NCBI GenBank assembly: GCA_009773735.1
Contig: WSYG01000002.1
Location: 1 to 57,949, forward strand
Direction: 5' to 3'
Origin: Erysipelotrichaceae bacterium
Lineage (GTDB): Bacteria > Bacillota_I > Bacilli_A > Erysipelotrichales > Erysipelotrichaceae
DNA length: 57,949 bases
The notes below the pieces were generated by a model that searched no databases, had not been told where the DNA came from, and saw only the letters and a program-made list of their open reading frames with translations. Both the position numbers and the translations under genes were made by a program. Within the stretch, counting starts at the first letter, position 1. Each line of letters starts with the position of its first letter. Of the stretch, positions 26,423 through 38,172 are shown piece after piece.

Positions 26423-27133
26423 ATGAAAAAAGTAATGATTTGGCTATTTTATGCCTTGCTTTGGGAATTATCAGCATTGTTGGTTAATAAAGCCATCATT
26501 TTGCCGTCTTTTTCATCTGTCATTATTTTGATGTCTCAACAACTTTTCACCTCTACACTTTATATTAGTTTGGGAGCCAGTTTGTTTAGGGTCATTATTG
26601 GCACAATGATCGCTTTGATTTTAGCTTTGACGCTGAGTTTATTAGCTGAATCCTTTCCAAAATTAAAACCCTGGTTTAGACCTTTAGTGTTGATCAGTAA
26701 GACCATCCCCAACATTACCTATATCTTGATCATCTTGATTTGGTTCTCACGTGAAATGACAGTCAGTATCATCACATTGTTGATTCTGTTTCCAGTTTTA
26801 TACAGTCACATCAGTCTTGCGATAGAAACAACATTACCTGAATATCGTGATCTGCATCAGCTGTTTCCAGAACGATATAGCCATCGATTAAGAGAAGTCA
26901 TATTGCCTTTGATTCGAGTTCATCTAATAGAAAGCATTCAAACGGCTGTATCCTTGGGATTTAAAGTTGGGGTCATGGCAGAACTGTTAGGTCAAGTTCA
27001 ACCTGGTCTTGGATATCAGCTTTATTTAGCGAAACTTGATTTAAATACACCAGCCTTATTTGCCTATACCGGTTGGATGATCATCACCGTGATTTTGGCT
27101 GAAAGACTTATTGGATTGTTGAGGAAAGATTGA
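26423..27133 (+). CDS. ABC transporter permease (SsuC/TauC-like)
   Basis: A protein of about 236 residues with six hydrophobic segments. The cytoplasmic loop has the EAA-type pattern (about 155-180, LFPERYSHRLREVILPLI) that contacts an ATPase. It resembles permeases of sulfonate/taurine/thiamine-precursor importers. The binding protein at 25137 is the obvious partner. No matching ATPase is encoded in this stretch, so either a distant ATPase is shared or the system is incomplete. The start at 26423 is preferred to 26414, which lies within the -10 box. The next gene overlaps the stop by one base. Confidence 0.75.
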   Translation: MKKVMIWLFYALLWELSALLVNKAIILPSFSSVIILMSQQLFTSTLYISLGASLFRVIIGTMIALILALTLSLLAESFPKLKPWFRPLVLISKTIPNITYILIILIWFSREMTVSIITLLILFPVLYSHISLAIETTLPEYRDLHQLFPERYSHRLREVILPLIRVHLIESIQTAVSLGFKVGVMAELLGQVQPGLGYQLYLAKLDLNTPALFAYTGWMIITVILAERLIGLLRKD

Positions 27134-27585
27134 TGGACCTTCAAATCTGGATTCAAGAGATGAAAGATCAAGGCGTAAGTCCTAAGCGAGCTTTGTTTAA
27201 CATAAAAGTACGTAAAGGATCTGTGTCTTCAGAAGCATTTGCTTTGGTTCAAAAAATATTTCAATTAAGTGAGACGGAACTGAAGTTGTTGCTGGGATGG
27301 TTTCCTCAACTAAAAGATAAACCTATTGCCAAACATCAATTGTTAATCTGTAAGTCATGTCAAAAAGGGGATGAATCCCTCATCAACAAGATCAGTACAC
27401 TGTTGGATACTCCAATCAATTCGATCAGTTCGGATGGATTAATTTCACTAGAATTAACGGGATGCATGGGTTTATGTGCTTTGGGACCAAATGCTGTGCT
27501 TGATCAACAAATCTATAATTCAATCAATACGAACACTGTATTTAGAAACAAACTCAAACAAATCTTGGAAGAAAGAGAGAAATAA
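27133..27585 (+). CDS. NuoE-like thioredoxin-fold [2Fe-2S] protein
   Basis: A 150-residue protein with a helical N-terminal half and a C-terminal thioredoxin-like ferredoxin domain. Cysteines lie in LLICKSCQKG and TGCMGLCALGPN, like the 24-kDa subunit of NADH dehydrogenases and bifurcating hydrogenases. The first pair is spaced CxxC rather than the usual Cx4C or longer, so cluster binding may differ. No NuoF or hydrogenase gene follows; it stands alone after an ABC permease. The function is not known. It starts by overlapping the permease stop (TGATG). A TTG three bases earlier is a less likely start. Confidence 0.65.
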   Translation: MDLQIWIQEMKDQGVSPKRALFNIKVRKGSVSSEAFALVQKIFQLSETELKLLLGWFPQLKDKPIAKHQLLICKSCQKGDESLINKISTLLDTPINSISSDGLISLELTGCMGLCALGPNAVLDQQIYNSINTNTVFRNKLKQILEEREK

Positions 27586-33570: not shown

Positions 33571-34184
33571 AACTCTGTCTCGCAACCCACAATCAAAATA
33601 AAGTCATTGAACTAAGATCCTTACTTAGTGATCATCCTGACGTTGAAATCTTGACCTTCAATGATTTAGACATCACCGATGAACCTGAAGAAAATGAACC
33701 CACCTTTGAAGGCAATGCTCGTTTAAAGGCATTGTGGGCTGCTCAACAAACCGGACTGATTGCTTTGGCAGATGATTCAGGATTAGAAATTGATGCTTTG
33801 AATAAAGAACCTGGGGTTTATTCAGCCCGTTATTTAGGTAAAGATACACCATATCCAGAAAAAAACGAAATCATCCTCGATCGTTTAAAAAACATCAGCG
33901 ATCGAAGTGCTCGTTTCATCAGTGTCGTGGCGATTGCTTTTCCGCAAGGCAGTAAACCACACCTTGAGAATACTGATATAATTTGTTGTGAAGGGATCAT
34001 GGAAGGGCATATCGCTTATGCTCAAAAAGGATCTAATGGATTTGGCTATGATCCCATCTTTATTCCTTCAGGTTTTAATGAAACCTATGCCCAAATGAGT
34101 ACTTTAGATAAAAATAAAGTATCTCATCGAGGTCAAGCCTTCAGAAGTGCCGTCAAGATCTTAATCGGAAAGGGAAAGTTATGA
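33567..34184 (+). CDS. rdgB: dITP/XTP pyrophosphatase (RdgB/HAM1)
   Basis: A 205-residue Ham1-family protein with an N-terminal THNQNKVIELRSLL, the catalytic segment LADDSGLEIDALNKEPGVYSAR (about 68-89) and GSNGFGYDPIF (about 155-165). It hydrolyses dITP, XTP and ITP to monophosphates, keeping deaminated purines out of DNA. It overlaps both neighbours by four bases (ATGA), implying coupled translation. Confidence 0.94.
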   Translation: MKLCLATHNQNKVIELRSLLSDHPDVEILTFNDLDITDEPEENEPTFEGNARLKALWAAQQTGLIALADDSGLEIDALNKEPGVYSARYLGKDTPYPEKNEIILDRLKNISDRSARFISVVAIAFPQGSKPHLENTDIICCEGIMEGHIAYAQKGSNGFGYDPIFIPSGFNETYAQMSTLDKNKVSHRGQAFRSAVKILIGKGKL

Positions 34185-35590
34185 GACGAGTAGAAAAAGT
34201 AAACGCTATTGCGTTAGGCGTGATCATATGGATCGTTTTGATTTTAAGTGCACTTCAATTAACAGGGTTTAATTTAGATTTTTATGTTGAACAATACGCA
34301 TCACGCGACACCGCAGAAGAAATTGGGGTTTCTTCTCAAGATCTTATGATCGCAACTGAAGTTTTATTGGATTATACCTCAGGTAAAAGAGAAGATATGA
34401 TCGTAGAAGTCGAAGTCAATGGGACAGTTCAACCTTTCTTTAATCAAAAAGAAATCCATCATATGTTGGATGTCAGGATCTTATATCTCAATGTGATACA
34501 ACTAAGAAACATATTGCTGATTTTTGCCTTAATAAATATATTTGCCTTGATTGCCTTTAATCGTAAATCCACGATTTCGATCCTACAGTTTGGCTTAAAA
34601 TGGGTATCGATTGGTTTAGGATCGATTATTGTTGCCTTAGCTGCTTTTGCGATCATCGATTTTGATGCCTTCTGGACAGCTTTTCATAAAGTCTTGTTTA
34701 CCAATGATCTATGGCTTTTAGATCCATATACAGATAATTTGATCAATATGGTCCCTGAACGATTCTTTATTGATTTGATCTTGATGATTGCGGTTCATTT
34801 TACATTAGCCATGTTAACTTTGTTTACTTTACTTCAAGGTATAAAAGACAAAGGCATCAATCAAAATATGTTGAAAGTGATTGCGGTCATTACGATGACC
34901 ATTGATCATGTTGGATATTTCTTGTTTCCTGAAATACGAGAATTACGCATCATTGGCAGAATAGCTTATCCGATCTTTACCTACTTGTTTGCGATCAGTT
35001 ATCGATTCTCACATGATCGAAAAGCCCTGTTGATTCGTTTAAGTATCTTTGCCATCTTAGGTCATGGTTTGATCTATGCGGCTGGACAAAGAGGATTCTA
35101 TAATATTTTATTCTTGTTTATCTTAGGTTGGTTTGCCTTTTGGATCATCGATCAAAAAAAGGACATCCTCTTATCCATCGTTGGGCTAGGAATATTGGCA
35201 ACTATCGCAGAGATGGGTGGCGTTGATTATGGGGCCTATGGGATCGTGACCTTGGTCATCTTTTATGTTTTCCATGATCAAAAACTTAAACAGTTTGGAG
35301 CTTTTACCTTATTGACCTTCTTGTTTAGTTTCCAATGGCTGATCGTAAGATTGATCAATGACTCTACGTATTGGAGTAATTTACCGCAGATCTTCAGTAG
35401 AGGCATCTATAGTTTGACTGGTAGTTTCCCTCAAATATTCGCGGTCTTAGCTTTGATCCCATTAGCCTTGTATATTTATAAAGTTCCCAAAAACAAGACC
35501 AGTCTTGTCTATAAGGCCAATCAGTACTTCTATTATGCCTACTATCCAATCCACTTTGCCATATTGGCGTATATCCACTATCACCTATGA
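34181..35590 (+). CDS. TraX-family membrane protein with N-terminal membrane extension
   Basis: A 469-residue polytopic protein. The C-terminal half (about 225-465) has the TraX pattern: NMLKVIAVITMTIDHVGYFLF, then RIIGRIAYPIFTYLFAISY. The family includes the F-pilin N-acetyltransferase TraX and many chromosomal homologues of unknown substrate. The N-terminal 220 residues add a signal-anchor-like helix, a soluble loop (about 35-105) and three more helices, which I do not recognise. There are no conjugation genes nearby, so an acyltransferase for a surface molecule is more likely. It overlaps rdgB and trmL by four bases each. Confidence 0.75.
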   Translation: MRRVEKVNAIALGVIIWIVLILSALQLTGFNLDFYVEQYASRDTAEEIGVSSQDLMIATEVLLDYTSGKREDMIVEVEVNGTVQPFFNQKEIHHMLDVRILYLNVIQLRNILLIFALINIFALIAFNRKSTISILQFGLKWVSIGLGSIIVALAAFAIIDFDAFWTAFHKVLFTNDLWLLDPYTDNLINMVPERFFIDLILMIAVHFTLAMLTLFTLLQGIKDKGINQNMLKVIAVITMTIDHVGYFLFPEIRELRIIGRIAYPIFTYLFAISYRFSHDRKALLIRLSIFAILGHGLIYAAGQRGFYNILFLFILGWFAFWIIDQKKDILLSIVGLGILATIAEMGGVDYGAYGIVTLVIFYVFHDQKLKQFGAFTLLTFLFSFQWLIVRLINDSTYWSNLPQIFSRGIYSLTGSFPQIFAVLALIPLALYIYKVPKNKTSLVYKANQYFYYAYYPIHFAILAYIHYHL

Positions 35591-36660: not shown

Positions 36661-36807
36661 ATGATTGAAAATCTGAACGACGTAATGTCTGCATTCTTGA
36701 TCATCTTAAGTGTGGCATTTGCGCTCATCCTGAATTTAGGTTTATTCATACGTCATCGTAAGAAGAAGATCATTCAGGAAGAAATCGAATACTACAAAGA
36801 GTGGTAA
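36661..36807 (+). CDS. Small single-span membrane protein (48 aa)
   Basis: A 48-codon frame with a consensus promoter and a GAGG ribosome site. Residues 9-30 form one hydrophobic helix. The stop-transfer sequence RHRKKK follows, then a charged tail ending in EYYKEW. The N-terminus should be outside. No family is recognised. It lies ten bases before the RidA gene and probably shares its transcript. Confidence 0.6.
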   Translation: MIENLNDVMSAFLIILSVAFALILNLGLFIRHRKKKIIQEEIEYYKEW

Positions 36808-36817
36808 AAGGAGCACC

Positions 36818-37411
36818 ATGTTTACAAAATCATTTGCATCCCCTAATGTTTATAAGCCGATCGGACCTTATTCACCAGCCGTAAAACTGGGTGATTTCGT
36901 GTATCTCAGTGGACAACTTCCGCTGGATCTAGAAGGTAAATTGGTTGAAGGCGATATCCAAGAACAAGCTTATCAAGTCCTAAAAAACATGGAAGCTACA
37001 TTGGCTGAAATGAATCTTGAGATGCGCCATATCGTTAAGACCACTGTGTTTTTAACGGATTTGAGTGAATTCCAAGCGATGAATGAGATTTATGCGACCT
37101 ATTTTTCAGATCCTTATCCAGCTCGTTCAGCAGTTCAAGTCGTTGCTTTACCAAAAGGAGCTAAGATCGAAATCGAAGCCATCGTCATCGATACCCTCGT
37201 CTATGAACAACAACTCGCACATCAACATGGTGAAGCGTGTGGTTGTGGAGACGACTGCGGATGCGAAGACGGCTGTTCTTGCGGTGAAGGCGATGAAGCT
37301 TGTGAATGTAAAGAAGGCGACGAAGGTTGTGAGTGTAAAGAAGGCGATGAAGGTTGTGAGTGTAAAGAAGTCGAAGAAGAAACAACATGTGAAGGGAATT
37401 GCTGCGGTTAG
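36818..37411 (+). CDS. RidA/YjgF-family enamine deaminase with a cysteine-rich C-terminal tail
   Basis: A 197-residue protein. Residues 1-128 are a complete RidA domain (IGPYSPAV, YLSGQLP, PARSAVQVVALPKGAKIEIEA) with the substrate-binding Arg103 and Glu120. RidA hydrolyses reactive 2-aminoacrylate and related enamines. Residues 137-197 form an added tail with 15 cysteines, six of them in CxC pairs. These are set in acidic repeats of nine residues (KEGDEGCEC). Ordinary RidA proteins stop near residue 128. The tail looks like a metal-binding or redox module. It is encoded by tandem 27-base repeats and followed directly by a terminator. Confidence 0.85.
   Translation: MFTKSFASPNVYKPIGPYSPAVKLGDFVYLSGQLPLDLEGKLVEGDIQEQAYQVLKNMEATLAEMNLEMRHIVKTTVFLTDLSEFQAMNEIYATYFSDPYPARSAVQVVALPKGAKIEIEAIVIDTLVYEQQLAHQHGEACGCGDDCGCEDGCSCGEGDEACECKEGDEGCECKEGDEGCECKEVEEETTCEGNCCG
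37286..37366 (+). repeat. Three tandem 27-base coding repeats in the RidA tail
   Basis: Units at 37286-37312, 37313-37339 and 37340-37366 differ at only a few bases and keep the frame, each encoding an acidic nonapeptide with a CxC pair. The repeat number could change by slippage. Confidence 0.85.
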
Positions 37412-37434
37412 AGAAATCTAGCCGTTTTTTTTTT
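37405..37434 (+). terminator. Terminator after the RidA gene
   Basis: CGGTTAGA, a GAAA tetraloop, TCTAGCCG (one G-U pair) and a run of ten T. It begins inside the last codons. Confidence 0.9.
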
Positions 37435-37468: not shown

Positions 37469-37927
37469 ATGCGCCATGTTAATTATTTAAAGTATGATTC
37501 ACTTAATCAAATCACCTTGATCATTGGTTTAGAAAACAAGAGGTTGTTTGGTAAACCATTGACTTTGCTTGAGACATGGGCCAATGCCTATGGTTTAGGT
37601 GCTTCAGGATCCTATGCAGCGTTTAAAAAAATGTTGAGTGTCAAACAAAAGATACCCATTCTGATCGATCCTTTTCATCAAATCTATTTCTTTCCAACCC
37701 TAAGTCCTCAGCTTAGTGAATGCTACTGGATCAATGCCTCGCAAGTTCAAGCGATCAAGTCAAAAGAGTTAGAGTCGATCGTGAACTTCAAAGATGGATC
37801 GTCATTGGTGTTGGGTATCGGAAGACGATCTTTGATGAAGCAAGTTCAACGTTGCCAAAGCATGCAACGGTTGATTCAACAAACTCATCTTAATCAAGGA
37901 CTTACACTTTTAAATCTTCATCCTTAG
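37469..37927 (+). CDS. comK: ComK-like competence transcription factor
   Basis: A 152-residue protein that aligns with Bacillus ComK over its centre and C-terminus. Matching elements are the ILIDPFHQIYFFPTLSP stretch (about 70-86; ComK has a MVDPSNQIFLFPTLS version), then ECYWINASQVQ, an FKDGSSLVL strand, and a helix with MKQVQRC. ComK activates DNA-uptake genes by binding AT-rich boxes. The C-terminal 40 residues of Bacillus ComK, involved in MecA/ClpCP control and oligomers, are shorter here. The start follows an AGAAGG site closely. No obvious K-box pair or strong promoter precedes it. Confidence 0.75.
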   Translation: MRHVNYLKYDSLNQITLIIGLENKRLFGKPLTLLETWANAYGLGASGSYAAFKKMLSVKQKIPILIDPFHQIYFFPTLSPQLSECYWINASQVQAIKSKELESIVNFKDGSSLVLGIGRRSLMKQVQRCQSMQRLIQQTHLNQGLTLLNLHP

Positions 37928-38036
37928 CTTGAACAAAGCTCCCAACTGTCCAAAAATAAAGCCAACCTGATGAAGATTGATCAAAATAAGGACTTTGACT
38001 TGCGAAATGCATCTGATTATGGTTAAATTATCCTGT

Positions 38037-38172
38037 CTTATCCAGAGTTGAGGTAGAGAGTTAGCTCGCATTACCTCACGCCAACCTGCATTACGCAAGG
38101 TGGTTCCGCTAACACCGATGAGGGACCTATTGACACGTGAACCCTTCTTGAGTGGATTAAGACGGGTTTTTT
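38037..38172 (+). promoter_or_regulatory. SAM riboswitch (S-box clan) with terminator, upstream of metK
   Basis: P1 pairs CTTATC (38037-38042) with GATGAG (38117-38122), the usual S-box closing stem. AGAG follows the 5' strand. An internal helix pairs GAGGTA with TACCTC. GCCAACC and AAGGTGGTTCC sit where S-box RNAs have GCAACC and AAGGTGCTAATTCC. The canonical GAGGGA/GGCCC junction is not evident, so this is a divergent S-box or a SAM-I/IV variant. A terminator (AACCC-TCTT / AAGA-GGGTT, T-run, 38140-38172) follows, so SAM should switch metK off. A TTGACT at 37995 may be the promoter -35. Confidence 0.8.

Follow-up and report, generated by a model that had tools for sequence, protein, structure and literature searches.

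Among the genomes sampled, a cysteine-rich C-terminal tail on the housekeeping protein RidA is confined to part of the Erysipelotrichaceae, where the tail arose once or twice and where its reading frame is under purifying selection. The gene described here lies in a window of 57,949 nucleotides, the whole stretch of DNA analysed, from an Erysipelotrichaceae genome of 1.94 Mb in 82 contigs. We consider it probable that its product is a RidA with a disordered, thiolate-rich appendage that binds soft metals in a metallothionein-like manner and has a role in buffering, storage or protection. The RidA proteins are among the most widespread proteins of life; they are imine/enamine deaminases that form trimers, and 2-aminoacrylate arises from PLP enzymes that metabolise cysteine and serine. 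Known RidA proteins are, to our knowledge, normally a bare domain that ends at about residue 124-130.

The RidA core and its C-terminal extension

The open reading frame at 36818-37411 on the forward strand encodes 197 residues, of which residues 135-197 are encoded in frame by 37220-37408, and the stop codon occupies 37409-37411. An earlier note on this DNA had described a complete RidA domain followed by an acidic cysteine tail, and this description holds, with 15 cysteines and six CxC pairs in the tail and matches to two RidA models, both above their curated cut-offs across the full domain as expected of the RidA subfamily: PF01042 aligns with residues 13-124 (E 7.9e-41, 139.3 bits, cut-off 27.3) and TIGR00004 scores 147.3 bits against a cut-off of 106.25, over a RidA span of residues 10-124. 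The closest solved chains are YjgF/UK114/YabJ structures (e.g., PDB 1xrg, 1qu9 and YabJ 1qd9), all of which align only to residue 120-125, and an AF2 model of the monomer gives the core pLDDT values that are mostly above 90. Five residues that align with the RidA active site, Y18, S31, N89, R103 and E118, are unchanged in 44 relatives, and we take Y18, S31, N89 and E118 to be the partners of the arginine, as in RidA structures. The arginine itself, R103, which is present together with its neighbouring residues as in other members of the subfamily, is the counterpart of Arg105 in E. coli TdcF, the active-site arginine that is essential for catalysis (PMC4433059). All of this fits a core that is catalytically intact and is predicted to function as an imine/enamine deaminase.

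Beyond the core, AF2 predicts an additional C-terminal helix at residues 127-139, which is missing from the RidA proteins of sister families, and then a tail with pLDDT values of about 40-50, i.e., a segment predicted to be disordered in the apo form of the monomer. This tail, the last 58 residues, ends in CCG and contains no aromatic residues, so that in composition (15 cysteines in 58 residues) the resemblance to metallothioneins that had been suggested is borne out. The next most cysteine-rich stretch of 60 residues, among all open reading frames of at least 100 amino acids in the window, has 5 cysteines, and a search of the host genome with the tail alone, at E values up to 10, returned no match besides the ridA gene itself. 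The features of the locus are listed in Table 1.

Table 1. Features of the tailed ridA locus, with coordinates in the window
Feature	Position	Strand	Evidence
RidA (YjgF/YER057c/UK114) core, residues 1-124	36818..37189	+	PF01042, TIGR00004, AF2
Family-specific linker helix, residues 125-139 (DTLVYEQQLAHQHGE)	37190..37234	+	DTxxxE motif, AF2
Acidic Cys-rich tail, residues 140-197, 15 Cys	37235..37408	+	Sequence, AF2, tails at the homologous position in 33 genera
27-bp tandem repeat, 3.5 copies, encoding EGDE(A/G)CECK	37286..37379	+	TRF score 153
Intrinsic-terminator-like hairpin and T-run	37404..37425	+	1 found against a shuffle mean of 1.0; weak on count, well placed
ComK-family protein, directly downstream of ridA	37469..37927	+	PF06338 E 9.8e-23, synteny

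Distribution, selection and growth of the tail

A search within the host genus detected relatives in 5 other genomes, with tails that differ in length between genomes, and the closest of these (G003) encodes a RidA with 84% protein identity across the full 197 residues. Across the family, RidA matches were found in 166 of 195 Erysipelotrichaceae genomes. When the matches that extend past the core were taken, they comprised 70 loci from 70 genomes and from 33 of the 59 genera sampled, and every one of them has a tail with at least 2 cysteines (69 of the 70 with at least 3; median 6, range 2-22). The survey of RidA proteins that the earlier note had called for did find similar tails, and the tail is not something that repeats created in a single genome but a family-level feature, spread over 33 genera, that the repeats only lengthen in this one.

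The motif DTxxxE follows the core directly in 69 of the 70 tailed proteins, and the tails that follow are about 20 to 140 residues long. On average, the tails of the tailed clade consist of 21% Cys, 23% Gly, 20% Asp plus Glu and 6% His, with 0.8% aromatic residues, and their cysteines are irregularly spaced at intervals of 1, 2, 3 and 4 (CC, CxC, CxxC and Cx3C). The tail at locus L016 (MQGGCGGCGGGCSSEEGGCCGGDCCGE) and that at L023, which begins HHHHHDHEGCGCGGHHHDEDEEGCGCGGHHHH, are examples; in 12 of the tails, 5-18 histidines are interspersed with CGC, e.g., HHHHHDHEGCGCGGHHH, histidine being the second ligand that commonly holds metals. The RidA of genome G027 (L019:1501-2292) carries a tail of 140 residues with 22 Cys and 11 His and with long repeats of its own (EGCGCDGKGKHDGSGHGKHK), and appears to have expanded this shared tail independently.

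Outside the Erysipelotrichaceae, RidA matches in samples of the order, class and phylum (294, 395 and 392 genomes, respectively) end at model position ~124-134, on or near the position where RidA genes usually stop; the RidA proteins inspected from the sister family, and from tail-less members of the family, end no more than 3 residues after the core. Among the sampled genomes the extension is restricted to one lineage: 33 genera of one family have it, whereas the sister family and the other members of the class in the sample lack it. For Clostridia and other phyla the coverage was a single pattern-based scan of contigs, in which the tailed matches belonged to records with the titles Erysipelotrichaceae, Firmicutes/Bacillota or uncultured bacterium, and cysteine tails may have been added to RidA independently in lineages elsewhere. 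The tail-less RidA genes of Erysipelotrichaceae occupy other gene contexts than the tailed ones.

On a tree of the RidA core (101 rows, built by a quick method and poorly resolved inside), the tail state changes 2 times, as compared to 29.6 times when states are shuffled; the second change falls in genus g58, a distantly placed group whose tails are short (CEGCCCD, for example). Among nine groups of close relatives, dN/dS by the Nei-Gojobori method is ~0.17 in the tail as compared to ~0.07 in the core, from pairs that are not independent of one another. At aligned tail positions Cys is kept in 97% of cases, His in 96%, Asp in 58% and Lys in 29%, by aligners that favour Cys-Cys matches. In ungapped pairs of tails, of equal or near-equal length and with one pair affected by compensating indels left out, Cys or His changed less often (4 of 65 positions) than other residues (20 of 161), but the difference is not significant (Fisher p = 0.23), and so the 97% retention of Cys may be in part an effect of alignment. 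The stronger argument for selection comes from the Cys content, which stays at ~21% across genera even though many pairs of sequences from one genus already approach synonymous saturation.

It had also been claimed that 27-base direct repeats encode the tail. A tandem array is indeed present, with a period of 27 and 91% matches (the second-best array in the window has a TRF score of 41), and its units translate as EGDEACECK, EGDEGCECK and EGDEGCECK, followed by a degenerate part copy; it spans 94 of the 192 bases in question, or about half of the tail, and leaves outside it the tail's N-terminal half (CGCGDDCGCEDGCSCG) and its end (TCEGNCCG). Since the tails of other relatives are present without the 27-bp array, and G003 has a diverged version of the repeat stretch (EGKEGCDCKEGEECKCKEGEACDCNEG), the repeats merely lengthen an existing tail. 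In the host genome the 27-bp duplication is a lineage-specific event that has given the pre-existing tail extra CxC units.

The gene neighbourhood

The gene order near tailed ridA genes is often rdgB, (Lit-TraX), SpoU methylase, ridA and comK, with metK further on. No metal- or redox-related gene was found in the ridA neighbourhood, either at the host locus or in syntenic relatives. The suggestion that the fusion links enamine detoxification to metal or redox sensing is therefore unsupported, as the neighbours (rdgB, Lit-TraX, SpoU methylase, ComK and a SAM riboswitch with metK) offer no such context. A comK gene lies directly 3' of ridA in 41 of 69 tailed loci as compared to 1 of 19 tail-less ones. 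That single tail-less locus, L222 of the sister family, has ComK without a tail, and so the two are not coupled; we regard ComK as a conserved neighbour and do not claim it as part of any tail mechanism. Nothing specific on ComK in Erysipelotrichaceae was found in the open-access literature. The 5' arm of the terminator-like hairpin overlaps the last ridA codons and the stop codon, and its position at the end of ridA suggests that comK is transcribed separately.

Several other features of the window were observed in passing. A diverged SAM (S-box) riboswitch lies upstream of metK at 38035-38124 (RF00162, 29.3 bits, E 1e-4), with a score below the gathering score of 44.4, so that it is not detected at the default threshold. 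A single open reading frame at 34181-35590 combines two domains with strong matches, Lit (PF07314, the lipoprotein intramolecular transacylase) and TraX (PF05857), and is a possible membrane acyltransferase fusion. Immediately 5' of ridA is a small membrane-type open reading frame of 48 amino acids (36661-36807) with no confident family match. At 27130-27585 there is a protein with a thioredoxin-like [2Fe-2S] ferredoxin domain (PF01257, NuoE-like), adjoining a membrane-transport permease-like and a lipoprotein-like open reading frame, which is an unusual setting for this domain.

A proposed metal-binding appendage and its alternatives

From the sequences we infer metal binding, the identity of the metal and a physiological role along the following lines. 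The short extra helix would join a disordered, thiolate-rich tail to a catalytically normal RidA, and the tail would bind soft metals, with Zn(II) or Cu(I) as the likeliest ions and Ni, Fe or Cd as further possibilities. In the host protein, the three tails of a trimer would offer up to 45 thiolates. The composition, the variable spacing of cysteines, the predicted disorder and the His blocks beside CGC point to a plastic cluster of metal ligands and not to a single fixed Zn or Fe-S fold, and the tail would probably let a housekeeping protein buffer or store metal inside the cell, or would protect the enzyme. Counting against a metallothionein function, some members have just 2-4 tail cysteines, few for such a role, and counting against a metal role in general, the neighbourhood lacks a metal transporter or metalloregulator. 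A broader proposal, that of a dual-function RidA which combines enamine detoxification with service as a main metallothionein-like metal buffer of the cell (or with a thiol/metal switch of RidA activity) at a capacity set by repeat number, strikes us as rather doubtful.

The main rival, which we judge unlikely, is a thiol redox device in which the tail cysteines would form disulfides or be the first to be oxidised, and so serve as a sacrificial oxidant trap or a switch of RidA activity, oligomerisation or chaperone function. It would account for the many vicinal cysteines (CC, CxC and CxxC) and for conserved thiols in a disordered segment, and it draws on reports that RidA proteins from outside the tailed clade act as chaperones after oxidation; neither the His-rich blocks that alternate with CGC in several genera nor the loose spacing and number of cysteines would follow from it, and the neighbourhood holds no redox genes. 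That the tail is largely neutral, a low-complexity sequence of little function grown by replication slippage of Gly, Cys and acidic codons, is an improbable reading, even with the 27-bp repeats of the host, the wide range of tail lengths among relatives and an evolution faster than that of the core in its favour, given that frame and Cys content are held across 33 genera at saturated dS, that dN/dS in the tail is 0.17, that DTxxxE is so nearly constant and that the tree has only two changes of tail state.

Tail thiols might also act as nucleophiles that capture escaping 2-aminoacrylate, a dehydroalanine-like enamine to which thiols can add, and so supplement hydrolysis by RidA. Such extra chemistry would sit beside an enzyme that handles 2-aminoacrylate, and in its own genome the tail is found on RidA only; yet a stoichiometric, consumable trap next to a catalytic hydrolase would be inefficient, the His-rich variants would go unexplained and no precedent was found in the open-access literature, all of which makes the idea very improbable. 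Virtually no weight can be given to a sequencing or assembly frameshift that joined RidA to out-of-frame repeats, an artefact that the earlier note had allowed for in case relatives did not share the frame. A 112-aa open reading frame does run across the tail in an alternative frame (37083-37421), but independent assemblies of 33 genera likewise have a Cys-rich tail in frame with RidA and the G003 protein matches throughout its length, and with the tail frame conserved in relatives we reject this explanation.

To return to the metal-binding tail, a stable and selected cysteine appendage on RidA suggests a tie between the control of damage from PLP enzymes and metal or thiol homeostasis, and the natural series of tails, with from 2 to 22 cysteines, makes the RidA tail directly testable. 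Our search of the open-access literature found no relevant description of a Cys-rich or metallothionein-fused RidA, and papers retrieved on RidA and copper were unrelated. Among known systems, the RidA/YjgF/UK114 proteins (PF01042, TIGR00004) share the whole catalytic core, with the active-site-aligned residues invariant, and differ in that known members end at ~124-130, where the tailed proteins add a C-terminal helix and a disordered Cys-rich tail. Metallothioneins of the bacterial SmtA/BmtA type (Pfam Metallothio_Pro) are likewise very high in Cys, with CxC, CC and CxxC and almost no aromatics, a composition that the tail has as well; the RidA tail, compared at the level of sequence, is not a free small protein, is acidic and Gly-rich, and is classed as metallothionein-like and not as metallothionein because five tails searched against Pfam at E values up to 10 matched no metallothionein model or other family. 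The closest parallel in design is with the GroES protein HspA of H. pylori, and also with SlyD, in which a housekeeping protein carries a lineage-specific C-terminal tail rich in Cys and His. The HspA tail binds nickel, and its deletion leads to less cellular nickel and higher nickel sensitivity (PMC3856676), whereas in the Erysipelotrichaceae the carrier is RidA and not a chaperonin, the lineage is unrelated, and the tails, known from sequence, are mostly Cys, Gly and acidic residues with few His.
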